DNA from: Beroe ovata
Taxonomy: Eukaryota > Ctenophora > Nuda > Beroida > Beroidae
Assembly: GCA_946803715.1 (NCBI GenBank)
Contig: CAMPET010000034.1
Coordinates: 293,030-332,586 of the forward strand
Direction: 5' to 3'
DNA: 39,557 bases
Shown here: piece after piece, positions 3,636 to 38,889 of the stretch
Layout of the letters: each line of letters begins with the position of its first letter
Numbering within the stretch: the stretch's first letter is position 1
Position numbers and translations under genes: made by a program
Notes under the pieces: generated by a model
What the model saw: the letters and a program-made list of their open reading frames with translations, nothing else
Database searches by the model: none
What the model was told of the DNA's origin: nothing

Positions 3636-4424
3636 TCATTTTCCGCCGTGATACATGGCCTTGAGCGCGGCACTGGTCGACATCCCGAAGGTATCCCCAT
3701 ACTTGAACTTCTCTCCCGGAATATGTCCCGTGTAATGGGGGACCATTCCGCTATCCTCCGGGTACAGAACTCGGCAATCCTCCGGCCCTGTTTTCGGCTC
3801 GCTCCGCAGTCGGAACGGGTGACTGCCGCCGCTTTGCATTAGCGCCGCCTGCTGGCGCTCCTTTTCCCGGTAATCGGCGATGGCTTGCTGTGTCATGCTG
3901 GGGTATCCCATACTGATCTTGTTACGAGACATGGGGAGGAAGCCAGTGTACCCGGAAATGTGGTAATCGAGAGTGTTGCTCTTCCGGGAATTCCGCCGAC
4001 TGACGTACGGCTCTGCGGAGTGCTTGACGGGGGTCAGAGGGACCGCTCTCACACTGTTATCTCGCACTCTCTTCAGATGCTGAGCTTGCAGTGATAGAGC
4101 GTCCTTGAGCTCCCCCTTTGCGTAGCTACACGCTGTGACGTACGGGAGTCCGAAATAGTGCTCGCCCTTGGGGATATATCCTGTGTACCCAGGAACGAGA
4201 TTGCTCCGGTATTGTGGTAGCTTCTCCTGTACTGGTTCTATCTTGCGGAGGACGAGGTTACCCGAGCTGTTGTTCTTGTCCGTGAGAATTTCGTGGGTTG
4301 TTTTGCTGAACGTTCCGCCGATCTTGTACTTGCGTTGGGGTATGTATCCACCATAGCCAGGGATGTGGTATGGGCTGGCGGTTACCAGCGAGTCAGGGTT
4401 GAACGGGGCGATTTTGGCAGCCAT
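3636..4424 (-). CDS. Ciliary microtubule inner protein 2 (CIMIP2/FAM166 family)
   Basis: A 262-residue uninterrupted protein. It contains four copies of the family signature: HIPGYGGYIPQRKYKIGGTF (residues 20-39), VPGYTGYIPKGEHYFG (77-92), HISGYTGFLPMSRNKISMGY (155-174) and VPHYTGHIPGEKFKYGDTF (228-246). The pattern (I/V)PxYxGxxP followed by (Y/F)xxGxTF is the hallmark of CIMIP2A/B/C (FAM166), which bind the lumen of axonemal doublet microtubules in cilia and sperm tails. The length is close to vertebrate FAM166B, but the gene here has no introns, unlike the vertebrate genes. The start is the first ATG of the frame, followed by MAAKIAPFNPDS. A perfect RFX X-box lies 89 bases upstream of the start codon. 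The A/B/C subtype is not resolved; the four-copy layout looks most like CIMIP2B. Confidence 0.93.
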   Translation of the reverse strand: MAAKIAPFNPDSLVTASPYHIPGYGGYIPQRKYKIGGTFSKTTHEILTDKNNSSGNLVLRKIEPVQEKLPQYRSNLVPGYTGYIPKGEHYFGLPYVTACSYAKGELKDALSLQAQHLKRVRDNSVRAVPLTPVKHSAEPYVSRRNSRKSNTLDYHISGYTGFLPMSRNKISMGYPSMTQQAIADYREKERQQAALMQSGGSHPFRLRSEPKTGPEDCRVLYPEDSGMVPHYTGHIPGEKFKYGDTFGMSTSAALKAMYHGGK

Positions 4425-4512
4425 GATACGAAATTTATGCGACAGAAAGGAATATTGTGGAGCTTACACGCGCGCGCCTCTGTCGTGCACGTGCAATTTC
4501 AGGATTCATTGC

Positions 4513-4897: not shown

Positions 4898-7800
4898 ATG
4901 TGGCAGCTGTTGCACCCACTCGAATCACGAGACCATGGGTCATGTGAGTGTAAATAGGGGAGAGAGAGAGGAGAGAGTAGAGACTGTAGTGTGCAACCCG
5001 ACACCACAACGTTCTTAATGATCTGTGTAGTGAGAAGGGGGAGGCCGCGTGACCCCCCACGCGCTCTCCTCTGATTGGTGCAGACTTGCTCCAGGTGGCA
5101 TGTGATTGGTCAATATGGTGGAAGTTTTGGTACCAGAGATAGTGGACTGTGAAGCCGTTGGGGGATATGTCAGTGAAGCTATTGGTCATTCCGTCTTGTC
5201 GGCTAAGATGATAATCTGTCAAAGTGTCAAATTTTGATGTGGAAACGACTGATTTTCATTCAGTTTTGAAAATCATCAAGTGTCACTGTAATTGTCAAAA
5301 CTTAGGTCTTTTTCTGATACCATATTGCTATATCATCATGACAAGCCAAATTTCGTTTCACGTTCAAAATCAGATCATAGTCATACTGATAGTACTTTGA
5401 ATCGAAACAAGACCGTTAACTAAGCTTGATTTTCAATTTTCTAGGCCATAGGCGCCTGTGCACCATGACGACAAAAACTAAAGCTTTTCATTTCAGACTT
5501 CAAATGTGAGGACGATGTTGAGGAATTGACTATACGGATAATCCAGAACTGTGAGTAAGAGTTTCACCTCTAAATCTAATTCTACTTCGGGACATTCATT
5601 TTCAATTATAGCCATATAATAGGCGTAGAGAATCATTAACTTTACTTTCATTCTAAAATGTGATATAATTTTCGATTAAAATGATAGCTGTATCTCGGTT
5701 AAACTTCAATTATCAACTTAAAGCGCAGCTGGCTGCAATTATATCAATATCTGATATCATTATCATTATTCCTTCTTCGAAATTGTGCACCATACATCAA
5801 CATGCATCTGTAGTGTGTAGATTCAATTTTGAATTTCAATACGCACAACACGTGTATGGTGTAATGTTAAATCGTATCTCTCCTATTTGGCGGATCAGAA
5901 GGCCCACACAGAATTTCATCTCTGAAAAAAATTGACCCTTCTGATACACACGTGGATCACAGGGTTCATCTTAGGTGACCCTTCTGATCCACGTTGCGCT
6001 TCTCTGGGGTCAAGTCAAACTCAAAATTTGGTGACCCTCCTGATATTGATCTCACTCAAATCCTATCCAATTTGACCCCAGGGAAGCACTTAGCACACGT
6101 GGATCGTGTCAGAAGGGCACGATCCTGTTTCGGCCTTCGATGAAGCTGAAGCAAGGCGCGCGCGCCGCGCGCAAGAAACAGTGGACAGATAACATGCATT
6201 CCTGCGCTGCGTTCCTGCGCTGCGTGACCCAAATACTCCGTGCGCGCTGCGCGTCTGCCGTCTCCGTGGTTTTAGGTTTAAGACTTTTCAGTTCACTGAG
6301 TAGAACAGGGGCGCGCAACGTGTGCACATCTGTCAGATGTTACCTGATCTGTTTCAATTGCGCGCGCGGCGCGCAAGAAAGTAGAAACAAGTCAGGTAAT
6401 ATAACATCTGACAATCTAACATCGCATTTGCCGGATGTTATCTGTCCACTGTTTCTTGCGCGCGAGAAACAGTGGACAGATAACATCAACCAACATCGCA
6501 TGACAACGCAACCGTTGATCTAAGATATGATATTGAAATTGCGCGCCGCGCATTGCTTCGGTAGCGCGGCATTGAAATTTGTTTGTCTCGGCGTATTTTT
6601 CAATGATCAACCGGACCGCGCGCGTGTGAGGAATAGTGGCCAGATAGCATCTGTCAGATTTTATTTTCCAGATCAATGGTGTTGTAATCATTTCATTTCT
6701 TTTACTTTATTTGCAGTCACTTCGATGAAGTACTGATAAACAGATTTCTGATAATATGACTGTTTCATTTGAATTTACTTGAAAATGATCGCTATTTGTA
6801 ATCTAGCTCATCGTTAAATTAGTGTCTTTTAGTTGCTTGAAAGTTATTTCATTCATATGCAATCCTAATTCCTTACTACTTTTTATAATATTTAATGTTC
6901 ATTGAAATCAGTCCATCTTACTGTTGTTGACAATTTTCATTGATAGAAGAGGGACAAGACATACAAATAATTGCTCCAGTATATACCAGTATATACCATT
7001 TGTCATTGGCAGTTGCATTAGGTGTACTGTACAGTGGTCAAATGCTTTCACCCACCCATGATGACCTCTTGCTTCATTGTTGAATCACTTCACAAAATAC
7101 AAAATATATATTAATGAAACTATTTCTTACCTTGCAGGATGGTTGATGTTTTGACAATAAAAGCTGATGATCCAAATGTCCTATCTTTATATCACAAACA
7201 AAAAGTTGAATTCAGATTCCAACAAAAGAGTGATAATGATTTTGTCATGTTTCTACTGGACACAGCAATGAGGGTCATTTCAATAGGTGATTAATTTTAG
7301 ATAGATCCTGGGTTAATCAGGAATTGATAAGAATGGTAAATGTTGGGAAATGATAATTTAAATGAGGCCTGAAAGCAAACATTATTTTCAGTTCATCAGT
7401 TAGCACCTGTTTTAGAGGCTGTGTCTCCTGCTGATCAACAAATGAGTCATGACTCTAATATTGGTGAGGACTGAATTAGTTTTTACAGTTAATTTTTCAA
7501 GTGTTCTTCTCAAATCCTTATATAACACCTGTTATTTGATTTGAATTGAATTTAATCATATTTTTAGATTACAGTGTAGATGAACTCTCAGCTATGGAAA
7601 CAGAGATATGCCATCCCTCAGAAAATACAAAGTAACTAAATCTTGAGCTCCGTTCTTCTGATCTCATCATCCATACATTATCCACTCTCTTGTCACCAAA
7701 AAGGGGTATTAATCATACTGTATTACCTCCAGGTTAATTGAATCAGAGCAAGACCAAACAAACCTTGATGTAGAGTCAATCTCATCCAGTGACCTGCCGT

Positions 7801-9197
7801 CACTTCCTTTATCGATGAACTCTGACTCAGCTTCTCTCAATGCACTTAGTAGTGCTCTTAAATCTTTTGTACCACAAGCGCCACTGATACCCACTGTACG
7901 CAAAGGATCAGACTCAATGCAGGAGATTGGAGTGCATCAAAATACTGCTGGGGGTTCTCCCCGCCAACACTCCTTCTCCCCTGCTCTTTCTATGGTAGAA
8001 ACCACTGATACAAATTCTTCCTTAGTGGAGTTTGATAAAACCATCAGTGCCCTGCAGAAGGAACTTGATTCAGTGTCACAGTCATTTGTCACGGACTCAA
8101 ACAGAAATCTGCCCCAATCAAATGTTTTAGACTCAAATGGCATGAACTTATCAATTATCAAACGTCTTCAAGACAACTTCAAGGAAACTTCCCAGTCTAA
8201 TAAGGAGCTGGACCTGATCAAATCAATCCAAGACACAATAGCCAACAAAGTGAATGAAAAGCCAGATGAAGTAAACATCAAAGAGGAGGTGGATATAATG
8301 CCAAGCACTCTAGCTCAGGCCGTATATCGACAAGAAACAGACCGACTCCAGACCACAGACCGACTCCAGCAGCTGATGAGCTCCATCAGCAATGGCTCCT
8401 CAAAATCAATCAACCAATCCAAAAACCTACTCTCCCAAATTTCCACCAACACCACTCCTCAGATCCCAGTCATCAACCCAGTGAATACAGCAGGTCTAAG
8501 CAGCGCAATGTTGAACACATCGTCTCTTAGCAACAGCACCCCACTTTGCAACTCATCATTAAACAGCAGTGGAATAAATTCATCACTCAACTCATCAACA
8601 CCTGGCCTCAACAATACACTCAGCTCCGGATCCCTTAACAATTCTACTGCTCTGAACAACGTTTCTGTCAACCAATCTGCTGTCACTGCAGGCGGTCTCA
8701 ACCAAATGTCCATCTCCCCTGGCACATCGCCAGGGCTCAAATCCAATGTAAAGAAGAATGGGAACCCTCTCTCGATGCTCCATCTTCAGGGAAATACCTG
8801 CTCGGTCGCAGATCAAGCAGCGATTCTCAGTGCTCTTTACAATGAGAGAAACAACGCTCAAGCATCGTAAGTATTACTGTTTAACCACCACATATTGTTT
8901 TATTTTGTGTGCCATGGTTTTGCCACTTGTGACATTTGTGTCAGCATACTGCTAGCTGTGTTTTTGCACCCTTGCGACTTTTCGCATCACATTGGTGACC
9001 CATTCACTTTATTGAAAAACGATTATGATCATCAGTTCATTGGAAAGTATGACGTCATGCAAATGATTTGGTCGATTGAAGTAATCAACAGACGATCCCT
9101 ATGAGTATAACCATCTCCCAAATTATTGCACAATTTAACAGTTCGATTTTCAGGCCTGATGTCAAAGTCAAGACTTCGACCAGCCCCAGCCCAAACA
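4898..9197 (+). CDS. Shared 5' exons of a transcription-factor-like locus with alternative DNA-binding tails
   Basis: Exons read by eye: 4898-4943 (tentative first exon, start MWQLLHPLESRD), 5497-5550, a 13-base microexon 6717-6729, 7138-7286, 7392-7463, 7568-7631, 7733-8866 and 9154-9197. Reading phase is kept across every junction, giving about 525 residues. The N-terminal part has FKCEDDVEELTIRIIQN, IKADDPNVLSLYHKQKVEF and VHQLAPVLEAVSPADQ; I recognise no family and see no BTB domain. The large exon is Ser/Asn/Leu-rich, with many LNSS and LNNS runs, a SUMO-type site in NIKEEVD, and GTSPGLKSNVKKNG near its end. It has no finger of its own. The last shared exon ends PDVKVKTSTSPSPN with a strong donor AAACA|GTGAGT in phase 1. 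That phase suits all four downstream terminal exons. Exons from 7138 onward are well supported; the first three are less sure, and translation could begin at an ATG in the microexon or at 7139. Confidence 0.68.
5976..6119. mobile_element. Imperfect foldback element
   Basis: The left arm (5976-6013, from TGACCCTTCTGATCCACG to CTCTGGGGTCAA) is complementary, with small gaps, to the right arm (6072-6119, from TTGACCCCAGGGAAGC to GTGTCAGAAGGGC). A third partial copy of the motif GACCCTTCTGAT lies just outside at 5935. It sits between the second shared exon and the microexon of the transcription factor gene. Confidence 0.5.
6434..6487. repeat. Perfect 23-base inverted repeat with 8-base loop
   Basis: Arm 6434-6456 (beginning GATGTTATCTGTCCACTG) is exactly complementary to 6465-6487, around the loop TGCGCGCG. 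Another direct copy of the right arm, preceded by the same GCGCGC-rich block, is at 6172-6195. The block ATCGCAT occurs on both flanks. It lies in the intron before the microexon. Confidence 0.9.
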
Positions 9198-12100
9198 GTG
9201 AGTCTTTGTGTGATAAAAATGTTTGATCAATTTTTGTTTGTCTGACACACGTTATGTCACAATGTGTCTCAAAGTGATTAGTGTTTGTATGTCAAAGTAC
9301 CTCTTTTGTTGACAGAATCATAAGTGATGTGACAAGATCTTGCTTGCTAATTCTACCTTATGGGGTTTCTATTTTAATCGTAGTAAATATGAATCAACTG
9401 AAGATCAAATTCACTTGATTTCGTCAGAATTAACCACCTTTTCTTGTTCTAATCAATAATTCTATCTATACGGTAATTCATGATAAATAATTCATCGTGA
9501 GGGGAAACAAGCCATCATGAGTGTCCGCACACAAAGGTGTTGGTTATTGTTGTCATGGTTTCCTCATTAGGTCACACAAAAGAAACAATTACCTCATTAC
9601 TGTACCTAATTAGCATCATGAATGCTCCCCTCCCATTTATTATGCATTATTATTGCCGTGGCTGTACATAATACCAGTGACGTGGACTGAACCTTCTCAA
9701 TTGGGACTTTTAACCACAAGGTCATTAGGGTTATACAGGGGACCAAGGAATGAGTTTGTTCTCGGTATGCAAATTGGGGTTCTCATTCACTCTGAGTAGT
9801 CAGACGCTCCTCAGGGCTCAAATTATGGGATTCCAAGCATGGGTACTTTGATCTTGAATAAGTGATGCATTGGCCTGATGTGCATTCATCAGATTATAGT
9901 GGCAGACCGAATTAAGTAAGAGCGTTATTTCGATACTGCCATAGACATGATGGTAGTAATAGGTACTACCGTACTATCGCAAACATAGACATGATACAAA
10001 CATAAACAATAAACATGATACACTCACAGACGCATACTTACACACGCGTCACGCTTGCCTACACACAGACAAACACACAAGCTGCACAAACACACAAATA
10101 CAGACACGCGCAAACACATACTCTGTGTGGGGTTTCTCAGCTAGTTACAATTAATATCTCTAATATTGCTAAATGGTGCTGACAGTGAACAGTTCAAATG
10201 ACCATAAAATGCCTAATCATTCGGGAAGATTTTCTTGATTCTTCGATTCTGTTCAAATACTGACCGAATCGATTGCAGCAGAAACAAACTAAAGTGATTG
10301 AAAGAATGAGAGAAGTTTATGTTCATGAAAACTATTTCATCTAGCTTTGTCTAAATTAGCTTCGTATAATTTGTAGTTTTCTCTCTCATGATGAGATCTG
10401 CTAAGTTGTGACCCCAGTGACAGAATTACCCCAGCTGGTCGTCGATCGCGAATTTTCGAAGATCATNAGAGGGGTGAGAGAGTAAGAAGTGAAATAATTT
10501 CATTTTCTCGTGACTAATTTGCAAGCTGCGCTATTGGTCGGATTCGTGTCACGTGACCTAGATTGCGAGTTCTGATTGGTCGAATGAACCATCAGGTGAC
10601 GTAGACAAAACAATATTATATCCGTGCTAGTATATTGCTGTTGGTGCTCACTTGTGATTTAAAACACTAATTAAATGGACTCTCTCTCTGATAAGACTAT
10701 ATAAATACCCCAGCTCTATTGGTCGCCTTCCTTCCCCGTGATGAAATTCCTGGCGTCCCATTGGTTGGAATCTAGTCACGTGACTTAGTGAAGGATTTGA
10801 GCGGCGAGGTTGATTTATTTAGCGATAAGACTATGTGTGCGCGTTACTATGAAACTTAGACGACGTATTGAATTTCATGATGCTATGAAAATTTCGTCTA
10901 ATTTTTGTCACTAAATCCTCGCGAGAAATGTTTTTATCTTTCTCATGTAACTAATCAGCGAGGCAGTGAATAATTAGAACACCGCGTTGTTTAGACTATA
11001 TGAGGGGGAACACACGCACACACACACACGCATAGACCAGGAGGCAGTTTAATGGTGACCACGCGAGTTTTCGTCTCTAATTGAATAATTCAAAACGTTC
11101 CACCCCAAATTAAGTTATGACTCGGTCGTTCATTCCAAAATGCTTAGAACATAGGCGAGAGAGAGAGAGTGTGGGTGATATGTGTGTGTGTTTAATTTTA
11201 ACTGTTACTTTACCACTTCCCCACTCACACAGAGTGTGTTTAAAATTACTAAACGAATTACTATATAGTCAGGTGATGCGTTGTGGTTGGTTGGAAAATG
11301 TCACGTGATCATTTTGGTGTTATTTCATTGGTTCTCTGCGGTTGAGGGCTGGTCTCGAGCACGTGGTACGTTATCTCTGTTACTCCGTGCACCATGTTAA
11401 TTAGGTTTAAATGCCAATACTACTCATTCGTAAATATAACACCAGCTCCTTCACAAATAATATTGTCAACCAACTCATAGGAAGAAATGAACTCTCGATC
11501 GAAAATCGGGAGGATTGAAATGGCTTCGATATCTTTATTGAGTCTACCATAGTATGCTCATACTCGAATGAACGTATGATTCGAGATCCAAAGTGAAACC
11601 AAGTTAAGTCATGAGTAGAACATAATCATCATCTCTATCACTGGGAACAAGATCTGTTTTCCCCAATTTTCAGACATTCCATTCTCTTGTTACTCGTTTT
11701 GTTCTTCGTTTTAATTCAGTGGGAATGATTTCATGTTTGTTTTGCTTGATTCCCTGATAGATATATGTGTGAAACAATCGTTCCATGTCAAATCATTAAT
11801 GTTCTGAAATTCGTGTCAATTCCGATTTGATAATCCTGATCAAGACTTTTGGAAAACTTTTCTAAAATCAATAAATATGTATTACGGCTTCCTTCCTTCG
11901 CTTGCAAATTTTGGCCAATCCCTTTTTCCGGATTCATTCGCGAGCCCGAAACCTTAAAAAACCGTTTGGTTACCTATTTCCTAGACTACCTGATGAATCT
12001 GATGCTCATAATGGGCATCCTTATCGCAAAACGCAGCTGTTTACCCTGAAATAATAAATCTACCCATTCGTTCTCTGCTCAGAAATCTGCTATAAACTAA

Positions 12101-12696
12101 TTATTCGCTCCGCGCTTTATCGAATTATGTGCCGTAGAGCGCACGTTTGCACGTATAATTATAATGAGCTACCACCTTTTCCAAGATAAGAAGAGACGAA
12201 ATTTACGTAAATTTCTGAAATATATCTCTCAAAAAATAAGAAAGAGAGAGCAAGGAATCTAACGCCCCCTCCCCCACTCAAAGATCTCTTTCTCTTATTA
12301 AATTCGGTCACTATGTGCAATGCTGTGCGCGAGGAAATCATGGAGAAACGCAAATGTTTAATTAAATTTGTTCATGTAATTAGAACTTCTGTTAAATGAA
12401 GAGTGGGCATGTGTTTTGAAATGCATAGACGACGCCGATATTTTGCGTCCTGATGATGATTAAAGGGCGTTTCCACATGGTTATCTCAATAGCAATCACT
12501 GTGATAAATTTCTTAGAAAAACACCAAAAGCTGTTTCGATTATTCTGATTTTGCGATATAACCTAAAATTCATTCGTACGACTGTCGACAAAATTCTAAA
12601 ATTGTAGCGTGAACTCAATCCGACGATTTGTTTTTGACGGAAATTCCGACGACAAAAGCTACGACATGGAGCGCAAGTTTCACACGTATATTTCAG
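9198..12696 (+). other. Long intron before the first alternative tail
   Basis: It lies between the shared donor (GTGAGT at 9198) and the acceptor TATATTTCAG ending at 12696. It holds CA-rich tracts (about 10017-10115, 11011-11030), GTCACGTGAC or related E-boxes near 10549, 10778 and 11300, and one N at 10467. I saw no exon with coding character in it. Confidence 0.55.
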
Positions 12697-12944
12697 GCTC
12701 AACCTCTGGAGGTCGCAGGCGACCCTTCCACTGTGCCCATTGCCTGAAAAACTTCTCATTCAAATCGTCTCTTGACCGTCACATCAGTGTCATTCACCTC
12801 GGACTACGGCGATATTCTTGTCCGATATGTCAAGCAGCGTTCGGGCAGAAAAAACAGCTGAAGCACCACATGTCAACGCGTCACAATGACATTCTGACTC
12901 AGCTTCAACTTATACAAAGCTCGTGGAAAAAGGAGGACTCTTAA
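12697..12944 (+). CDS. Alternative terminal exon A: two C2H2 zinc fingers
   Basis: After the acceptor TATATTTCAG the exon contributes two bases to a split codon and then 81 residues and a TAA. It reads STSGGRRRP, finger 1 (FHCAHC...LDRHISVIH), the linker LGLRRY, finger 2 (SCPIC...LKHHMSTRH) and a short tail ending WKKEDS. Both fingers are C-x2-C-x12-H-x4-H. The first codon completes the phase-1 donor at 9197, giving SPSPN-S-STSGG. The second half resembles exons B and C (VHLxLKxYxC, FGxKxxLKxHM), so the three probably arose by duplication. The frame is open for about 90 bases upstream of the acceptor, but that part has no finger character. Sure as a finger exon; its splicing to 9197 is inferred. 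Confidence 0.85.
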
Positions 12945-13433
12945 TAACTAAGGGGATATGGTGTGGTCTAAGTGACGTCATCGTGTCGCGCAATGGTGTC
13001 GGCATAGTGACGTCATGGTGTTGCCATAGTGTCGTCATAGTGATATTGGAAGTGAAATGGCGGACAGAGTGGTAAAGGAGATGATCTAGTTTAGTGAAAA
13101 GGTGGAGGTGGACATTTGGACGCCAGTTATGAGTTGCAGATGGATTCCTATGTCAGTTGAGCTACGTTAGAAAATATGTTTGAAAACCGTTTTATAAAGT
13201 GTTGTTTTTATACCTACGTTTCCCTAGTTGTAGCCGTTTTAAAGACGCTTAACGCTTATTAACCGAAGTTTTTGAGAATGATAATCACGTGATAAATACG
13301 TGATAATCACGTGATAAATGATCTATATAGGGTCACGTGGAATTGTGTAAATGCGCATCACACATGTACAATGAACACTGCTTATCACAGTACACTAGGT
13401 AGTAGGTACTCATGTCATATATATCGTCAAAAA

Positions 13434-13453
13434 CACACACACACACACACANN

Positions 13454-13486
<33 letters not shown>
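13434..13486. repeat. CA microsatellite with two Ns
   Basis: CA repeats surround NN at 13452-13453, probably a sequencing or assembly break inside the microsatellite. Confidence 0.95.
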
Positions 13487-13487
<1 letters not shown>

Positions 13488-14856
13488 CTGACATTATTGT
13501 CACATGAACTGTGAAAGTATTGTACCTACCCTCCTATCAAACATTGTTCACTATCATAAAGACTCATAGCTCGTGATATGCATATACCTGCTCACCTGAT
13601 ACTACTAACAATCAGGGTACACACGGTGTTTTTAGTGGAAATGTACTGAATTTATAATCAGTGGTACACAAATTATATCTAGCCGAAATTTGCACACTTA
13701 GTACTCAGCATTGTCACATGAATTCTAGCTATGATAAGGGTTAGTAGGAGATAGTATATTTAACTTTTAAGGTTTATACGATTAGAGATAATTAGATAAT
13801 TATAGACATTAAGCCAAAATGGAGGGCGAAAGGGGGGCGTTACCCTTTTAAATTAAGTCGTTGTTTATGCATGAAGTTAAAATTGTTGAACGAATAACAC
13901 TTTTTATGTTATTTTATGTTATTTTCATAGGCTTCACTTTGAAGTTCTGAACTACACACTTTTTCACGTGTTGTTTTGGAAAATATGGTTTTTATTGTTA
14001 GTAAGAACTATTTACTTTTTATTCCTTCAGACACCCGTTGAATTGATTCCAACGTTTTTGATTGATTTAATTGGTTTTTAATTGGGCATGATTGTGATTA
14101 TGAAACATGATTTTTTACCAGATGAATCGAATGAAGAATATTATATTTTTTTGCACAATCGACTCAACTCGATTTGGCCATAGTTTAGCTACAATATGAG
14201 TGTTTTTAAGTGTTTTATATCATACTAATGATTTTTAACTTTTGATTAGTTCAAGACATAAGTTTTGTTCATTCGTTGTCTCTCTCTCATTCTCCCTGAC
14301 GATAGAAAGCATTAACTCGCTACACACATGGCTTTGAAAGCTATATATCTTCTCAATCGTGTTAAAAGCACCATTCCCGATGTCAATCGTCTCTGAGATT
14401 GATTTCTCAACATTCGTTGTGTTAAAAGCAACAGTGACGTTATGCTGAGTGTATTATAGAGATTGCCAATAACTACATTTATGAGAGCGGGCTCAGAGGG
14501 CAGATGTGTTTCAATTTCGGAGAATTGATCCTCAGGAGGATTCCTTCGTAGAATTCATCTTTCATTATTGTGAAATGGCGAATTCATACTATGATGTGCT
14601 GCATTGTTATCACGATGTGTTGTTTTCATTGTTATGGTAGCAGCTGACACCTGCTAAGCACACACGCACACACATACAGTATACACACACACTTACTCAC
14701 ACACACAAAATGGAATATTTCTGATATTTTCTGTCTGTGATAGTTCGATTTCACTATTACCCATGATTGTGCTGTGCGTCAACACTACCTCATTGCACAA
14801 CATCACAACCTGTTCAAGATCTCCCAGATGATGAACCAATCAGTGACCGAGAAACT

Positions 14857-14902
14857 CAGTCACGTGACTGAGCACGTGACCACGTTCCTCACACGTGACT
14901 CA
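14857..14902. promoter_or_regulatory. Triple CACGTG group
   Basis: Three CACGTG cores lie within about 45 bases (CAGTCACGTGACTG, AGCACGTGACC, CACACGTGACTC), next to a TGACGTAA half-CRE near 14949. It could be an intronic enhancer or internal promoter, but E-boxes are common in this genome. Confidence 0.35.
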
Positions 14903-15330
14903 TTTACCGCCCGCTGATTGGCTGTCGCACATTCTTCCTCCGGATTAATGACGTAACAGATCGTACGTTGTGGGGACATTGGTCAATGACCAATGGAGAT
15001 CTCTCTATTTCCTTATAAGGAATAATTGTCCGTATGGCACTCAGACTGCCTGTGTCTATGTGTGTGTGTGTTAATAAGGTGTCAAATTAAGGTGCTAATT
15101 GCTTCCAAGTTCCGTGCGCATATAGTTAGACCAATTAAACGCTACATATGTGTAAAACTGTGGTTTCGGTGTCAAAATTCAGAAATCGTACATGTACATT
15201 GATTGGTGTCGACATTTCAACACGATGTACGCAGTTGCATACCAATCTTGACAGGTGTGACACAAATTGTTCAAATTTGGTACTCACATTTGAGATGGAA
15301 TGTACATTTATTGAATTGACTGAACCGATT

Positions 15331-15380
15331 TTAGACTTAGCTGATTTAAGACTTAGCTGATTTAAGACTTAGCTAATTAA
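15331..15380. repeat. Short tandem repeat, about three units
   Basis: The unit AGACTTAGCTGATTTA recurs nearly exactly (TTAAGACTTAGCTGATT), the last copy diverging to TTAGCTAATTAAG. Confidence 0.85.
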
Positions 15381-15506
15381 GAACGAAGTGTATAAATGTA
15401 CGTTTGAATGAAGCCCATGTCGAAATGTTACATTCCAAAATTCCGATGCATCCGAAAGTTACCAGGAGAACAATAGGTAGTTTCATGTACGCACTGCGCA
15501 TAATTT

Positions 15507-15670
15507 GAGAGTGTGAATGTATGTGTGTCTGTTTGTGTGTGTGTGTGGGTGTGTGTGTGTGTGTGTCTGNNNNNNNNNNNNNNNNNNNNNNNNNNNNNNN
15601 NNNNNNNNNNNNNNNNNNNTGTGTCTGTGTGTGTCTGTGTGTGTATGTTTGTGTATGTGTGTGATTGTGT
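15507..15670. repeat. TG microsatellite containing a run of N
   Basis: TG-rich sequence flanks an N run at 15570-15619. The round length suggests a scaffold gap placeholder. True length is unknown. Confidence 0.95.
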
Positions 15671-17174
15671 GATGCGAATTGCGATTGATGGGGGCTTGAA
15701 ACTGTTGAGTTTGCGTCACTCGACTCTGACATGTACTCTATGTAGCTGTAATACTTGACACGTCTCTAGTTCAGCAATCATACCATATGTCGGTGTGAGT
15801 GGTTCCTGCAAAGTCAGTGAAAAAGAGATTTGCCAATCGTATCGATCAGCATATCATGATATCTGTCCTAAAATTGCGTCTGCAGAAAAGTGAGGTTTAT
15901 AATAGTGTCAGTGGACGTAGATGATAGAAATACACACTGGAATTGCGGTTCTAAGCATGAGTTTTGACAATCGGCCATTTTCAAGATTGTCACGATTCCC
16001 TTCATTCCCAGACAATATGTTGGATCTTCACCTCCTTTCCGTTTTCACAATTTACAATGGCTCAGTTTTAAAGTACCCAAATCGTCAGGTCTTATCACCA
16101 ATTATAGAACTACTATATTCAACATGATAAATACGATTTACTCCATGAAAATTGTACATATATTCATTTATGTAAGTTTGTTTCTCGTGAGAACTTTACT
16201 CCCTCTCTATACGTATCACTACTAGTATATATATCTCTTACGATGGCAGCTTAATTCCCGGAAATACGTAAGATTCCCAGTAGTTGACCTGAACCGATCT
16301 TGCTCAGTAACTCGATTCATTTACGATAGAATCACTTAGAACACATGCATATAAATATTACCTTGTGTTTGATAATGGTATTGCTCGGTAGTCGTTATAA
16401 CAGGATAAGTTACAGCTTAATTGGACGATACTACGTCCCACAAATTTCCGGTACAGTGCAACTGCGACCATTGTTATGTATCTGGGACATGTGGATGGGG
16501 GTTAACTAACGACTAGCACGGTTCTGACATTTACGTGTGGTGATATTACTTCGCGCGTTCCCGTACAACGCGCGCGCATTCATTTCGCGCGTGACACTGT
16601 GACCATAAATTTAGGCGTGATGAGCTAACTGGTGTAATTTCAGTGATGACGTGACCACTAATGACGTCATTCGATAGTATCATCATTGCCATGATCCATT
16701 ATCCAGCTGCTTTACATCATTTCCACTTTCGACCTCCACTAATTGGTCCTCCTGAGGGCCAATTAGCGTCTTAATGGACGCGTTGCAAAGCTGTACAGCC
16801 TACGGCATGATTTCTGTATCCCACGTTTACGCTTTTAAACTTGCCCCAACATCATCATGTTAACGACCGTAATTCTTCATCGATGACACCCCCACAAGAT
16901 GTCATTATCATGACGTCATAGTCATACATAGAGACTCATGACACGGTGAATCACTGAATCATGACAAGGTTTTGACAGGGCATCAGGGCATGGGACAACG
17001 CGCATGCTGTAAATGTTGATGACACTCAAATATTATGTCACATTCTTTCTCTATTTCTCTCCTTATTATCATACTCTGACTTGCATCATCGTTTCCACTC
17101 TCCTCCTGCAATGAATGAATGGTTCCTGAATGAATGTGTCCCATGATAACAGCCACGTGTCTTCCTCTCGGCAG

Positions 17175-17344
17175 GTAGTCTCGTTACAAACGAGGGGTCC
17201 GTTTCCGAAGAAGAACGGAAGGAACGTCGGCGGAAGAAAAATCGAGAGGCTCAAAAGCGATGTCGAGAGAGAAAGCGATTGGGGAAGGAGCGACAAATTT
17301 TGGAATGGGATCATTTCTTGAAAAAACGTCCGGACATTACTTGA
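17175..17344 (+). CDS. Alternative terminal exon: bZIP-type basic region
   Basis: The acceptor CTTCCTCTCGGCAG is followed by a phase-1 exon of 55 codons plus a split codon, ending in TGA. It starts SLVTNEGSVSEEERKERRR and then has KKNREAQKRCRERKRLGKER, which fits the bZIP basic-region pattern N-x2-A-(A/Q)-x2-(C/S)-R-x-(K/R)-K. NREA and CR are as in CREB/ATF proteins; Gln in the second Ala position is as in fungal Yap factors. After the basic part only about 20 residues remain (LGKERQILEWDHFLKKRPDIT), with leucines seven and then six apart, too short for a normal zipper. It lies 171 bases before exon B and could share the polyadenylation signal at 17980. No transcript evidence; a degenerate or non-dimerising bZIP is possible. 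Confidence 0.6.
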
Positions 17345-17515
17345 AAACTATCGGACATTCCTAGAAAATGGGACATGAAAAAGAGGGATTAGATGAAGCC
17401 ATTTGCTCGTGCCATAGCTGTGTGTTTATAGGTCGTTGTGCAATGTGCGTGTGTGTCTGTAGGACGAAGAGAAAAACGGACCTGAAACGGAAAATAACTG
17501 GAAATTCCTTTTCAG

Positions 17516-17718
17516 AAACCATCCAATGTAAGATTTGCGGGAGGGTCTTACGAGGGGCAAATAAACGAAATCTGCAAAGACACATAGACCTTGTCCATCT
17601 GAACCTAAAGCCGTATAAGTGCAAGTTTTGTAACCGACCGTTTGGGCTGAAAGCGTATTTAAAAGCACACATGCTAACACATCAGAAGGGAAAATCAGCA
17701 TCCTCTATCAAAAAATAA
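17516..17718 (+). CDS. Alternative terminal exon B: two C2H2 zinc fingers
   Basis: The acceptor AATTCCTTTTCAG is followed by a phase-1 exon ending in TAA: a split codon and then 66 residues. Finger 1 is C-x2-C-x14-H-x4-H (QCKIC...NLQRHIDLVH), longer between Cys and His than the usual 12. The linker is LNLKPY. Finger 2 is a standard C-x2-C-x12-H with HMLTH. The tail is QKGKSASSIKK. The parallel with exon C is close: GRVLRGANKRNLQRH against SKVFRGSSRAQNLKRH, and FGLKAYLKAHM against FGLKYNLKSHM. The open frame runs upstream to 17368, but through a TG-rich stretch without meaning, so I start the exon at the acceptor. Confidence 0.85.
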
Positions 17719-17979
17719 CTATTATCTAACGAACAAAACCATCAAACATTTGTAAGTTTTTATGACCGACTGAACAAACCAAGTCACGTTAAGTTATTAT
17801 TCTTAGCTACCCATCTCGTTTCTGAAGCTATTTGGGTTATTAACCTCAAAACTTCGTCAATGAAAGCATAGAAATGAAGCCCAGTTTGTTATTTTGATAA
17901 TGCTTTGATTGTATTTGGCTGTTCTGTTTCCAATATTTATGTTCTATTTATTAACAAACGTCTTCCACTCTCGGATGGA

Positions 17980-17985
17980 AATAAA
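17980..17985 (+). terminator. Polyadenylation signal AATAAA
   Basis: AATAAA lies 262 bases past the stop of finger exon B and could end transcripts using exon B or the bZIP exon. Confidence 0.5.
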
Positions 17986-18371
17986 TGAAATCAAATGATT
18001 CTTCATTCGATTCTCCCACTGATAAGTTATGTTTGCTGACTGAATTTGTTCAAACTCTCCCCATGAGTTTAATTGTGTCTACAAAAACCTCACACACTAT
18101 CCACCAATCCCATTCGACCCCATCCAGTATTTTTCATCTACAGGCATATCGATTGAAGGAGTTTAAAACTTTGATATATCGTTTTGATACGGATTGATTA
18201 GTTTGTCGCTTACTACCGTCTCTCCCCCTCTCGAAATTTATACAGTGTTACCACTCTCGTAACCCAAATTTGGCTGTCAACATCTGTGTCTGTATTGTCT
18301 AAGTTTTGTCCTGATTATACCGGATAAAATTCAACAACCCGCGCCGTGATGTAACACTGTATTTATTTCAG

Positions 18372-18667
18372 GGGGAAAGAACGGGGGCAGTTACCATGGT
18401 TACGACTACCACCCTGACACCGACCACGTGACGTGTCACGTGTGTAGTAAGGTGTTCCGGGGATCATCACGTGCCCAGAACCTAAAACGGCACTTCAATA
18501 ACGTGCACCTCAAACTGAAACCTTTCCGGTGCCTGGTGTGTGGTATGATGTTCGGGCTCAAGTACAACCTCAAGTCACATATGTCTCGAGCTCATCATAT
18601 GGGCGATCTGGCAGGAGTGGTGACAGCAGCTCGACATCGATTTCCTACACCCACTCCTCGCTCTTGA
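18372..18667 (+). CDS. Alternative terminal exon C: two C2H2 zinc fingers
   Basis: The acceptor TGTATTTATTTCAG is followed by a phase-1 exon with 97 residues and TGA. It opens GKNGGSYHGYDYHPDTDHV, then finger 1 (TCHVC...NLKRHFNNVH, with 15 residues between Cys and His), the linker LKLKPF, finger 2 (RCLVC...NLKSHMSRAH) and a tail of about 26 residues ending PTPTPRS. The finger-coding part contains GTCACGTG and CACGTG. Joined to 9197 it would read SPSPN-R-GKNGG. A possible polyadenylation signal is at 19804. It is clearly a paralogue of exon B and a more distant one of exon A. Confidence 0.85.
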
Positions 18668-21594: not shown

Positions 21595-24500
21595 ATGGCG
21601 ACTTCAGATGAAGAACTAACATGCTGGGTCGGTGGGTTAGATCCACAAGTGACGACGGAGATACTCTGGGAACTATTCATCCAGGTTTGGCACCATTCCA
21701 ACGATAGCCACACTTTGTCTATCGATGATAGACCCTATCGAGAATTTCATTTTTCAGACGGCCGGGCCTAGCATCGCCAGGCAAAGCCACACTCCGATGT
21801 TTATGTGACATTCTCATCGTGAATTATACTCTCCATCTCAGGCAGGACCCCTCCTCGATGTCAAGCTACCTGTGGACAGGGAGACGGGAGAACAGAGGAA
21901 CTTTGCATTCATCGCATACAAACACCCCATATCAGGTGCTGTTTCGGAATTAAACTCTTGCCGATTCCTCAATACTCAATTTCATGTCGTTGACTCATGA
22001 GTATTTACCCTATTAAACCTCTATTATATTTAAACCTCTACTATATTTTCCCAGGCCCGTACGCACAGAGGCTGTTTAACGGGATCAAGCTATTCGATAA
22101 GGTGATCAGAGTCCGCTACAAGGGGTCACAGCAGTTCGATTCGAACAAGTACCATGAGCTTTATGAGAAGCTGCTGGAGAAACTTGTTGTGGATAACCCT
22201 GATAAATACTCAGGTCCGTGGTGTCAATCAGTCATGAGTGGTGTCAATCAGTCATGAGTGGTGTCAATCAGTCATGAGTGGTGTCAATCAGTCATGAGTG
22301 GTGTCAATCAGTCATGAGTGGTNTCAACAGACACAACCACGAGAAACACGCAATGGAACCTGAGTTCTACTGCGAAACTTGTGACAAGTACTTTGACGAT
22401 AATCCCAAACTCAGGAGACACAAATGGCAGGTGGGCATCTCTTGTCAGAGATTTTTCCCGTATGTTTCTTTTTCCTCGTACCCAAATCACAACCTAACTC
22501 CATATTTCTTTCAGGTCCATGGCGGTACTGAAGCCCATCTAACATGTGAAGATTGCAACATCGAGTTCAACAGACGATCCCAGTACAACAGACATTTGCA
22601 CGAAAAACACGGTGACCCTTCGGTAAATAAATAACTTTGCAACGGATAATATCACTAACCTCCTTGCGTGGTATGTCACGTGATAGACCACGTGACTTAT
22701 TGATATCTCACTCTAGAGATAGCATGTGGTCTTAGAACAACCTGTGGAAACACACATTAAGATTTGTCCTATTTCATGTAAATACCTACTATGGATTCCC
22801 ATGTAATTTTGGACGCGGAATCGATTCCCGGTGGAATTTTCGACCTATCTTGCTTCCCTGAGGAGCTGCCCGTGAGGTGACCTCAAAACTCCCACTTCAG
22901 AAGGAACCTAAATTTTCACCGATTTCTCGATGAGCTAGCCCTGAAATTCCTCCAGATTAGGATTCTACGTCAAAAAATAGGCCGGAAACACATCTCTTCA
23001 GTATGTTTATACCTAAAATGGATTTTGTCGTTTTTTGATATCAGTGTGTCCCATTGATTTTCGCGGTTTTGATGTGCATGCTTCCCACAGGTTTGAAATC
23101 GTGATTTGGGCGTGGTTTCATTGCCCGTATGAACTTCAGATAACCCTAAAGGGGGTGGATATTTGTAGTAGGACAGTAGGAGAGATGATTTGGTGTAAAG
23201 TTGGCATCGTAGGTGCCCGTTAAGTCTTCATTAGAGACCTCTCAAAACAGAGCATAAAAGTGTGGGTGCATTCACTTCACTTTCTACCGATCGAAAATTC
23301 GAAGAAAAATTTTTCCCCCATTTTCATGTAAATACTATGGATTCCCATGTAATCTTGGACGCAGAATCGATTCCCGGTGGGATTTTCGCCCTATCCTTCT
23401 TCCCTGAGGAGCTGCCCGTCAGGTGACCTCAAAACTCCCACTTCAGAAGGAACCTCAATTTTCACCGATTTTTCGATGAGCTAGCGAAAAAATTCCTCCA
23501 GATTTGAATTCTACGTCAAAAAAATAGGCCAGAAACATATATGTTCAGTATGTTTCTACCTAAAATGGATTTTGCCGTTTTTTAATATCCGTGTGTCCCA
23601 TTGATTTTCGCGATTTTGATGCGCATGCTTCCCACAGGTTTGAAATCGTGATTTGGGCGTGGTTTCATTGCACGTATGAACTTCAGATAACCCTAAAGAG
23701 GGTGGATATTTGTAGTAGGACAGTAGGAGAGATGATTTGGTGTAAAGTTGGGATCGTAGGTGCCCGTTAAGTCTCCATTAGAGACCTCTCAAAACAGAGC
23801 ATAAAAGTGTGGGTGCATTCACTTCACTCTATACCGATCGAAAATTCGAAGAAAAATTTTTTCCCCATTTTCATGTAAATAGTAAGGATTCCCATGTAAT
23901 TTTGGACGCAGAATCGATTCCCGGTGAAATTTTTGCCCTATCTTGCTTCCTTGAGGAGCTGTTTGTCAGGTGACTTCACACCTTATATCTGCTTATCTGA
24001 GAAGAAATAAGAATTTGACTCGATTTCTCGATACACTTACGTAGCAACACGCGCGCCGTGAATTTTGAATAAAAAAGCAGATATCTGCTTTCTAGTGTCT
24101 AACTTGCCCCAGACTGCCCAAATCATAATAAAGATCTGTCATTACCTAACTTCCAGGTTGATTATTGTGAGTTATGTGACAAGTATTTCGATGATGGAAG
24201 GATGGCGGTGAAACACATGGACTCATTCCATGCAGCCGAACAGGGCCGTATCATGTGTGATCACTGTGGCGAGAGATTTGACAAGAAACACAAGCTGAAC
24301 GAGCATCTGTTTGTCATTCACGAGATATCCACTGATGCTCACTGTGACAAGTGTCAGAAGTTCTTTGATGATAAGAATGCGTTCAAGCGCCATTTCAAGC
24401 AGGTGAGACCCCAACTAGTCGTGACGTCACGCGTCACGTCACGCGTAACTCGTCTTAACTTGTCGTGACGTCACGCATGACTCCCACCGCATTTCTGTCT

Positions 24501-25421
24501 AATCTTTGTCCAACTTGATTATTGTTTAACCTTTAGAGTGAGTTAGTAGGCATTTCTTTGGTTGCTAGAATATAGTTAAACCCGTTAATTTCGTTCTCGA
24601 CAAAACTCCCTCACTAAAGTTCAACCCCCTCCCTTCCCCCCTTTTCCCAGGTTCACGAATTCTTTTCTCGACATAACTTCCCTACTAAAGATTAACCCCC
24701 TCCCCTCTTCCCCCGAGGTTTTTACCCCTCCCCCTTACCCCAGGTTTTTACCCCTCCCCTCCCCAGGTACACGGCGACACGGAGGGCTGGGTGTGCGAGA
24801 CATGCGAGGAAACATTCCCCCGTCGTACCATCCTGAACCGTCACCGCCACGANAATTATAATAGCGTCGAGCTGGTGTCAAGGGATTGCAAGTGGTGTCA
24901 AGAGGTGAAACTGGTGTCACGTATCTGTGAGCGGTTTCAAAATGAATGATGTAATTGTAACTGGTGTCGATGTTATCCATTTCATGCTTCTCACAGGATA
25001 TTTTGCAGGTATATTCGAGGAAATTGAGGAACTGAAGTCGAGCTATATCGGTAACAGGATAGTGTACGAAGAGGACGACAACTTTGCCGGCTACAACAAA
25101 TCCCAGGGATCACACTCGTCATCCAGACACCATGACGCCAGTCATCATGACACCAGTCACCATGGTAACAGTGACTCGCGTGGTTACCGTAGTTCAGGTT
25201 ACCATGGTAACTCACGTCACCATGACAGCTACGACAGACGGCAGAGTGACCACTATGACAGCAGATCACATGATTGGTCACGTGATAGCAGGTCACGTGA
25301 CTCGGACTGGTCACATGACAGTAGGTCACGTGACTCGGACTGGTCACGTGATCGGCACGGAAAGCATAGAAGGATGAACAATGAAGAATCTTTCTACCGT
25401 CAAAGGGGAAGCAGGTTTTAA
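21595..25421 (+). CDS. RBM7/RBM11-like RRM protein with C2H2 fingers and an RS-like tail
   Basis: Exons by eye: 21595-21684, 21842-21935, 22055-22213, a broken exon about 22324-22430, 22515-22622, 24157-24402, 24767-about 24874 (broken), and 24997 or 25009-25421. The first three make one RRM: RNP2 CWVGGL (residues 10-15), LWELFIQAGPLLDVKLP, RNP1 RNFAFIAY (49-56) and PYAQRLFNGIKLFDKVIRV. PYA-x2-LxNGIKL is typical of RBM7/RBM11; WVGGLD also recalls SF3B4. RBM7 belongs to the nuclear exosome targeting complex. Six C2H2 fingers or finger parts follow (YCETC, LTCEDC, YCELC, IMCDHC, AHCDKC, WVCETC), then a tail of SRD, RDSDW, SRHHD and YDRR repeats. Two introns lie inside H-x4-H (KWQ|VHG and FKQ|VHG). 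Known RBM7 proteins have no C2H2 fingers. Ns at 22323 and 24852 break two fingers, so the full protein cannot be read. Confidence 0.82.
22221..22320. repeat. Five exact copies of a 20-bp minisatellite
   Basis: The unit GTGTCAATCAGTCATGAGTG repeats five times without change, directly after exon 3 of the RRM gene, and runs into GTN at 22321-22323. Coding sequence that looks like the second half of a finger (NRHNHEKHA) starts at once after the N, so the repeat is probably collapsed or misjoined. Confidence 0.97.
22623..22634 (+). other. Read-through stop after finger exon 22515-22622
   Basis: If the donor TCG|GTAAAT is not used, the frame adds VNK and stops at TAA. A retained-intron isoform would therefore end after the second visible finger. 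Confidence 0.35.
22772..23976. repeat. About 550-bp tandem duplication, 2.2 copies
   Basis: Copies start with TTTCATGTAAATAC at 22772, 23322 and 23869 (the last a partial copy of about 108 bases). Copies 1 and 2 match closely throughout, for example GATTCCCATGTAAT, GAGGAGCTGCCCGT and GTAGTAGGACAGTAGGAGAG. All lie in one intron of the RRM gene. I see no coding capacity or transposon ends. Confidence 0.95.
24419..24480. repeat. Cluster of TGACGTCACGC elements
   Basis: TGACGTCACGCGTCACGTCACGC and a later TGACGTCACGCATGAC sit in about 60 bases just inside an intron. TGACGTCA is the CREB/ATF palindrome. It may be simple local duplication. Confidence 0.6.
24585..24766 (+). repeat. Duplicated pyrimidine tract with several candidate acceptors
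   Basis: Two related blocks (CTCGACAAAACTCCCTCACTA, then CTCGACATAACTTCCCTACTA) and two copies of AGGTTTTTACCCCTCCCC precede finger exon 24767. Several CCCAG acceptor-like ends occur. The one at 24652 would open VHEFFSRHNFPTKD and a stop, which completes an H-x4-H finger but truncates the protein. Confidence 0.7.
24867..24970. repeat. Degenerate GGTGTCA repeat cluster
   Basis: CTGGTGTCA, GTGGTGTCA, CTGGTGTCA and CTGGTGTCG recur here. The segment GAGCGGTTTC is shared with a similar cluster in SRP54 intron 3. Confidence 0.7.
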
Positions 25422-31770: not shown

Positions 31771-32717
31771 AAGTACCTAATACGTGCAGTCGGATTTTGA
31801 AGCTCTCATTTATTGTCCACGGATTTATCATCAACTTTTTAACCGACGGTATGACCAAGTCAGTTAAACTATAAAAACATCACAATAGTGCCTGACAGAG
31901 TGGCTGACCACTTTGTCTAAAATCATCGAAAAGTAGTGCTGACAAGGTGAAATCGATCAAATTGATTGTTTCCAAAGTGCTAAAATGTTAATGTGCATTT
32001 TGTTCTCCTCAATCATTGCATTGTCAATGTCACTCGGATATTATAGACTTGGAGAAAATCTTGAGAAGGTTAAGAATCATTTTCAATTATTTTTTCCGAC
32101 AAAAAACTGAGAGCATTTCGTTGCTCTTCTTGGGGTGGACAGTAATTGCATTGTCATCAATATTATTATGGAAATGGTAATATTCTAAATGAAAATCTTT
32201 ATCTAATCGGACTTTGATCATTGTGTTGGAATGGTATAACCTGGTTAGTGGTTGGCTCATTAAAACTAAAAGGTTGGAGGGAAAATTGGATTGAAAACTT
32301 GATTTAAGATCAAAATTAAAAATAATAATCGAATTTAACTCCACAATAATAATGACATTAACAACACTAACAGAAATGTATTAGTGGTGATTGAATCTTG
32401 TATTGGGTTGCCGGTGACAAAAGCAGCTGATCAATAACTCCATTAAAAAGGTCCCTCAATACAATTGGCACATTAAGATTTCTTCCTATTATTCTGCATC
32501 ACGGTTATAACTCAATTTTTCACCTGTTTTCACCTGTTTTAACCACTATAGAACTGCTTCATAATCATACGACAAATCGCTCTCAAAGTATTAGATTTAG
32601 AAGTCGTAGTAGTAGTACTATACTTACGTTGCTTTATCCAGCGTAAGAAAAACTCAATCACACTTCTATTCAAGCACACTATTCATTGGAGTTGGACCAG
32701 GATCAAATCTAATATCT

Positions 32718-33857
32718 ATGGACATGAACTTCATTTTCAGTGGATTCTTCCTTCTTCTACAAGTCTCTCAATTCCAAGTTTCGGACTCTCTCGTTATCAA
32801 TTTTGAAAGCCATGGTGTAAATCCCGAATTGGCTTTGACTGAACATTGCAGCCTGGTGGAAGTCCACAAAATACACACAGCCGCGTTCGGACACACTAGG
32901 CCCCCCACGGAGCAGACAGCTAGACGGGCATATCTCAAAAAAGCTATTAGGAAACTCGTCAATCAGCAAGAAGACCATCGAGTGTCGTGGGAAGTTGGCT
33001 TATCGTTCATGGCTGATATGTCAGATGAAGAGAGAGCTATCTACTTAACTGGATTTAACGAATCGTTATACCAAGACCAGAACATCAACAAGGGGCTCCA
33101 AAGTTCGTGGCGGACAGCGCCGCAACTGTTGGCCGGCGGTGACCACCGTAACGTCCCAGATTCCTTCGACGGATGGATGGAACAAGGATATCTCAGGACG
33201 ATAATTCCGCAGAAAAAAGGAAGTTGCTGGGCCCACACTGCCGTCACACCACTAGAGGCACAGCTAGCAGCTAAGAAAGGAAAGTTTGTCAAACTCTCAG
33301 TGCAAGAGATATTCGATTGCGGACAAGAAAGTGGACACGCAAGCGGAGGTAACCCGATCAACGGATGGTTTTATGTCTACGAGCATCAGAGACTGACTAC
33401 GGATCGGGAAGTGCCAGAGATAAGGATGGCTACAGAACGAGGACACGATTGCTCCTTCTACCAATTCACGTCTAACGCCCTCCAAGGGACAGAGCTGACT
33501 AACATATACAGTATCAGTAGATCAAGGGTACCCTATGAATTGGAGTTCGTGATCTCCTCAGTGAGTCCAGTCGGTGTTGCTGTCGATTCTACGGAGAGCG
33601 ACCTAGAGAACTACGAAAAGGGGATCTTCGCGCCATGGCGGTGCGCCTCAACGCCCGATCACGCTATGACAATGACCGGATATTCTCCCGATTATTGGAT
33701 CGTGAGAAACAGCTGGGCTAACTGGGGTCAAAACGGATACGTATTTTGGTCCAGAACGTCGAGAGAGTGCCACCTTCTCAGTTATATACGATATCCCTAC
33801 TTGGAGGCAGCCACACCCATACTGAAGAGAGCCGTGGGGGAGGATCAGGAAATTTGA
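32718..33857 (+). CDS. Papain-family (C1A) cysteine protease precursor, intronless
   Basis: A single 379-residue frame. Residues 1-22 form a signal peptide (MDMNFIFSGFFLLLQVSQFQ). About 45-112 is the I29 inhibitor propeptide, with an ERFNIN-like helix (EQTARRAYLKKAIRKLVNQQ). The mature enzyme starts near 145 (NVPDSFDGW). Oxyanion Gln165 and catalytic Cys170 are in PQKKGSCWAH, His315 in DHAMTMTGY and Asn331 in IVRNSWANWGQNGY, so the full triad is present. Odd points: the usual QGxCGSCWAFS has KK in place of its first Cys, and the usual CxGG after the LSxQ motif reads as ASGGNPINGW, so the conserved first disulfide is probably absent. It should be secreted or lysosomal. The absence of introns in an intron-rich region suggests a retrocopy origin. 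The frame is intact, so it is probably functional. Confidence 0.9.
   Translation: MDMNFIFSGFFLLLQVSQFQVSDSLVINFESHGVNPELALTEHCSLVEVHKIHTAAFGHTRPPTEQTARRAYLKKAIRKLVNQQEDHRVSWEVGLSFMADMSDEERAIYLTGFNESLYQDQNINKGLQSSWRTAPQLLAGGDHRNVPDSFDGWMEQGYLRTIIPQKKGSCWAHTAVTPLEAQLAAKKGKFVKLSVQEIFDCGQESGHASGGNPINGWFYVYEHQRLTTDREVPEIRMATERGHDCSFYQFTSNALQGTELTNIYSISRSRVPYELEFVISSVSPVGVAVDSTESDLENYEKGIFAPWRCASTPDHAMTMTGYSPDYWIVRNSWANWGQNGYVFWSRTSRECHLLSYIRYPYLEAATPILKRAVGEDQEI

Positions 33858-35372: not shown

Positions 35373-38889
<3,517 letters not shown>

Follow-up and report, generated by a model that had tools for sequence, protein, structure and literature searches.

Can a single ctenophore gene join one protein body to any of several DNA-binding ends? 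This question is raised by a 39,557-nucleotide stretch of Beroe ovata DNA (assembly GCA_946803715.1, contig CAMPET010000034.1, positions 293,030 to 332,586 of the forward strand), hereafter the window, to which coordinates without a contig prefix refer. A preliminary description made from the letters alone had read positions 4898 to 18667 as one gene with a shared body and four interchangeable terminal exons (tails), each encoding a DNA-binding domain. The best-known cases of constant/variable splicing of the DNA-binding domains of transcription factors are insect BTB genes, and ctenophores are a phylum that branches very early among animals. Our analysis points to a ctenophore gene family in which one shared body appears to be joined to any of several, in places dozens, of alternative DNA-binding tails. 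This reading, which we regard as likely, builds on the established anatomy, phase and paralogy of the exons, on the conservation of some tails and on isoform models in another species.

The shared body was rebuilt by splicing five coding exons on the forward strand between 7139 and 9197, which gave an open frame of 487 residues with cumulative out-phases of 1, 1, 2, 2 and 1. Exon 1 (7139–7286) carries the start codon and most of a conserved N-terminal module (N-module), and exon 2 (7392–7463, phase 1-1) carries the end of that module (VHQLAPVLEAVS). Exon 3 (7568–7631, phase 1-2) is followed by the long exon 4 (7733–8866), which is rich in Ser and Asn, as described initially, and contains a conserved NPLSMLHLQ motif close to its end. 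The final shared exon (9154–9197) ends in a phase-1 donor, A|GTGAGT, and the rebuilt frame bears out the position and phase first assigned to it. The body had been placed at 4898–9197; the five exons occupy 7139–9197, and no coding exon was found from 4898 to 7138. The ATG at 7139 sits one base past an AG, which is a caveat on the start of exon 1. Orthologues begin at the identical Met, and anything upstream of 7139 would therefore be 5′ untranslated region. All named homologues of the window gene are from ctenophores, and the Mnemiopsis and Bolinopsis orthologues join a window-type body to a tail of the 12697 type.

Each of the four terminal exons, at 12697, 17175, 17516 and 18372, is preceded by an AG, and its first two bases complete the codon opened by the A at 9197. 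All four are in frame with the 9197 donor through to their own stop, which confirms the frame and phase first described; under equally likely phases, the chance that four of four tails are in phase 1 is 1/81. Three of the tails, at 12697–12944, 17516–17718 and 18372–18667 (all on the forward strand), were identified with Pfam as C2H2 fingers. They are paralogous pairs with two complete fingers each, just as had been noticed, and the first shares 90% identity with the tail of the homologue P0002 and 91% with that of P0004. A DNA-binding domain had been claimed for every tail. This stood for the three finger pairs, whereas terminal exon B (17175–17344, forward strand) encodes a bZIP-like basic region whose Pfam bZIP_2 match (E 2.6e-4, 21.4 bits) lies just below the 22.3-bit cut-off. 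The match stops at position 28 of the 54 in the model (residue 38 of 55), the exon ends at its own stop 17 residues on, and neither a leucine zipper nor a GTRAG donor was found within it. A genome search at E≤1 turned up no second copy of this basic-region exon. No ctenophore protein with the 18372 tail came up in a search directed at it. In the exons at 17175, 17516 and 18372, phase, acceptor and stop are all retained, as are the residues of the fingers or of the basic region, and the sequences of these exons suggest that they would be used behind the window body.

The same genome assembly (77.8 Mb) was searched for further bodies and tails. Shared exon 1 gave 11 matches at E≤0.1, the window and ten other places. 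By contig, the 11 comprise four on C24, single matches on C34, C62, C66, C72 and C80, and a weak pair on C52. Searches with two tails gave at least 84 and at least 91 matches, both lower bounds since 150 candidates were scored in each case, out of 207 and 162. Many of these matches were packed in one-strand arrays on C24 (three stretches), C62, C66, C70 and C99. These array loci, together with the loci on C72, C80 and C52, made up the 249,000 bases that were examined. A hidden Markov model grown from the three finger-pair tails of the window gave 126 domain hits in the sequence scanned, and 101 open frames at eight loci were retained as finger-pair tails: 29 on C99, 21, 18 and 6 at the third, second and first C24 genes, 13 on C70, 7 on C62, 4 on C66 and 3 in the window. 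This count leaves out the 17175 basic-region tail, additional hits to a frame already counted, frames that were partial or had a single finger, the neighbouring RRM/finger gene of the window, and two reverse-strand hits that lie beyond the fourth C24 body, downstream of it in the third C24 stretch.

The bodies on C24 (four genes), C66 and C62 share the plan of the window gene: an N exon, an exon opening with VQHLAPVIEAVS, and a long exon that holds VIEIKEE-like and NPLSMVGS-like motifs. For the second C24 gene the full spliced frame was verified (141301–141454, 141552–141665, 141785–142484 and 142600–142658; out-phases 1, 1, 2 and 1). At five of the six paralogous loci tested (the four C24 genes and C66), the shared part closes with a short exon whose in-phase is 2 and whose out-phase is 1. 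Only the closing exons of the second and third C24 genes clearly match each other in sequence, and the others were located by position and frame.

Six loci combine a body with an array. Downstream of a seventh body there are two finger hits, and for two further arrays no body was detected. These two arrays bear on a further explanation, that the tails are attached by trans-splicing of separate transcripts, as is reported for part of lola and mod(mdg4). Trans-splicing would be compatible with the same anatomy, and no body was found in the flanks examined of the C99 and C70 arrays; against it, at all seven loci with finger hits downstream of a body, the finger exons lie next to that body on the same strand, and we regard it as unlikely. 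The largest array, with its 29 tails, lies at C99:189455–207540 on the reverse strand, and a run of N (C99:209784–224587) sits immediately upstream, at the expected body position. A second run of N (C70:105673–117673) lies immediately upstream of the C70 array, and both runs may hide a body.

The joining of tails to a shared phase-1 donor was then compared with the features of the 101 tails as a set. At least one phase-1 AG was present in all 101. Of the 101 tails, 80 have a phase-1 AG as their best-scoring acceptor, chosen by an ad hoc pyrimidine-tract score, while phase 1 accounts for 43% of all candidate AGs; the excess has a binomial p of 1.5e-13 if paralogous tails are treated as independent, which paralogues are not. 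The common phase also argues against the finger exons being small genes in their own right, each with a promoter and first exon of its own. That explanation draws on the spacing of the tails (median distance 561 nucleotides) and on the 35 tails that have an in-frame upstream ATG in their own open frame, but the other 66 have none.

The strict two-finger pattern was found in 98 of 101 tails. The recognition residues of C2H2 fingers are those at helix positions −1, 2, 3 and 6, and with both fingers combined all 98 parsed pairs differ at these positions. Among the 11 closest tail pairs, the synonymous rate (dS) was finite in five, with ratios of nonsynonymous to synonymous rate (dN/dS) of 0.08–0.28, and undefined in six; the five look to be under purifying selection. 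A median of 6 residues separates the second finger from the stop, and a strict donor ([ACG]GGTRAG) between the two was found in none of the 101 tails.

Several observations weigh against alternative tails behind a shared body or qualify the evidence for them. A looser GTRAG is present between second finger and stop in 6 of 101 tails. Together with the tandem order on one strand, this would fit a single long poly-finger protein of which these are successive internal exons, an explanation that we consider extremely improbable. Moreover, the 17516 tail has a rival acceptor at 17418, in phase 2, with a score of 3.0 versus 2.7, and the last shared exon on C62 has no settled acceptor or frame. An AATAAA or ATTAAA lies within 400 nucleotides downstream of 28 of 101 tails, against a background of about 25%, so that such signals do not account for the polyadenylation of each tail.

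The preliminary description had also proposed looking for the same exon array in related genomes. A search with a paralogous N-module considered 24 candidates and matched 11 proteins. Four of the 11 are RefSeq isoforms, which are predictions, of one Bolinopsis gene, LOC134813369: X5 (P0012), X6 (P0011), X8 (P0010) and X15 (P0009, whose cluster has 27 member sequences). The four share 373 identical residues up to KGQANP and then swap to four different tails at the homologous junction. Pfam at E≤0.01 found two fingers in P0009 and P0011, one stretch in P0012 and none in P0010; Cys/His pairs are visible in the tails of P0010 and P0012. The annotation of such tails as isoforms of one gene stands against the separate small genes considered above, which thus appear very improbable.

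A further protein, P0008 (source code lgn), has nearly the body of LOC134813369 and a fifth tail. Its contig is probably cDNA, because 472 residues come from 1,496 bases. The P0008 tail is 72% identical to the Beroe exon at C24:407262, and the next three hits reach 40–49%. From the junction P0008 reads IYEFEAGFTMTMKCPLC, and the C24 exon reads IYEIKQGYNITIKCPEC from an acceptor at 407224; the first three residues match, and both readings start 13 residues ahead of the first Cys. At the junction, P0008 to P0012 read I, M, T, S and I in turn, all of which are compatible with codons starting with A, as a preceding phase-1 A demands. Judged from these alignments, at least one of the tails has been conserved across species and is attached at the predicted site. 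Reciprocal best tails in the Beroe arrays were found for three of the five proteins (P0008, P0010 at 57% and P0011 at 50%) and not for P0009 and P0012. Exon swapping like that of lola on a non-BTB body, as first proposed, is supported on sequence grounds from paralogues and from a second species: the Bolinopsis isoforms diverge at the homologous junction, and the orthologues of the window gene itself show its first tail.

The body had been described as non-BTB, and this held. In a profile search of the shared N-terminal part, two N-modules were run against Pfam and nothing matched at E≤10, and one N-module had no PDB sequence match at E≤10. An AlphaFold2 monomer model of the Bolinopsis orthologue P0004 (11 sequences; mean predicted local distance difference test score, pLDDT, 48.2) showed helices at residues 12–24 and 32–65 (block pLDDT about 47–77), no strands in the N-terminal region, a largely disordered body and two confident terminal fingers (blocks about 72–90). 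BTB domains are alpha/beta, whereas the modelled module is all-helical; a BTB identity was therefore rejected. Named matches to the N-module were all from Bolinopsis or Mnemiopsis, and in one homologue, P0014, the module is joined to a SIX domain and a homeodomain. Two further Beroe loci, both on the reverse strand, also place the module near other domains. At C72:135110 to 131819 (L036) it lies 3.3 kb upstream of a partial homeodomain exon (Pfam E 4.7e-8), and at C80:141674 to 137987 (L035) it is followed by C2H2 fingers that are not of the paired-tail type, some with TGDKPY-like linkers; the modules would be joined to these downstream domains.

The closest known design is that of Drosophila lola. 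According to passages of one report, a constant BTB-containing 5′ region is spliced, in cis and in trans, to unique C-terminal exons, mostly zinc fingers, giving at least 20 isoforms (PMC1947980); passages of another state that 17 of 20 isoforms have different C2H2 fingers (PMC11426971). The ctenophore system shares with lola a common body with alternative C-terminal DNA-binding exons, as seen in the phase of the window exons and in the isoforms of the Bolinopsis paralogue. In contrast to lola, its body is an unrelated helical module, in another phylum, and it spans several loci with up to 29 tails in one array. It is lola-like in its working and outside the lola family, because the defining BTB domain was looked for and is absent. 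Passages on mod(mdg4) likewise describe one body with at least 30 isoforms that differ in their C-terminal ends, a BTB body with mostly FLYWCH ends, and trans-splicing (PMC11426971). The likeness lies in one body with many C-terminal ends, whereas neither BTB nor FLYWCH was listed in our Pfam scans of the window, the N-modules and the homologues. Tramtrack, broad and fruitless also have alternative finger exons, but behind a common BTB body and with few tails. Clustered protocadherins similarly join tandem variable exons to constant ones; there, however, the variable exons are 5′, have their own promoters and encode cell-surface proteins. No earlier description of a swappable-tail family in ctenophores was found among the titles and abstract openings listed, with subscription literature mostly outside that coverage, and an earlier one is possible.

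Regarding the mechanism, a single donor would most likely select among the terminal exons in cis. The N-module may make protein contacts, the disordered body could draw in cofactors, and every finger pair would read its own short DNA site, perhaps with partners needed, since two fingers alone bind DNA weakly. On a wider scale, we suggest tentatively, and with more doubt than confidence, that ctenophores independently evolved a genome-wide constant/variable system of transcription factors. In it, a lineage-restricted helical N-module would be set on at least three kinds of DNA-binding end: about 100 swappable finger pairs, homeodomains including the SIX type, and a zipperless bZIP basic region. 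Should the N-module pair these proteins with one another, few genes could yield a combinatorial code of very many DNA-binding complexes, which might for example specify cell identity. If true, a lola-type design would have evolved independently in a very early-branching phylum, on an unrelated body and as a multi-locus family. This allows a direct test of whether such splicing arrays follow diversity at the neural or cell-type level. It also suggests that gene counts may understate the diversity of ctenophore transcription factors.

The remaining features of the window surround the gene. Upstream, on the opposite strand, lies a Ciliary microtubule inner protein 2B-like frame (3636–4463, reverse; Pfam E 1.1e-23). 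The next gene downstream (21595–25420, forward) encodes an RRM (RRM_1 E 1.2e-12, exons joined by eye) followed by C2H2 exons. Between its exons sits a tandem repeat (22787–23983) with a unit of about 546 bases, in two full copies and a partial third, the pieces being 87–95% identical. Further downstream are a papain-family cysteine protease frame (32616–33854, forward; Peptidase_C1, E 5.2e-34) and pieces of an SRP54 gene (35894–38177, reverse) with GTPase, signal-peptide-binding and N-terminal domains.
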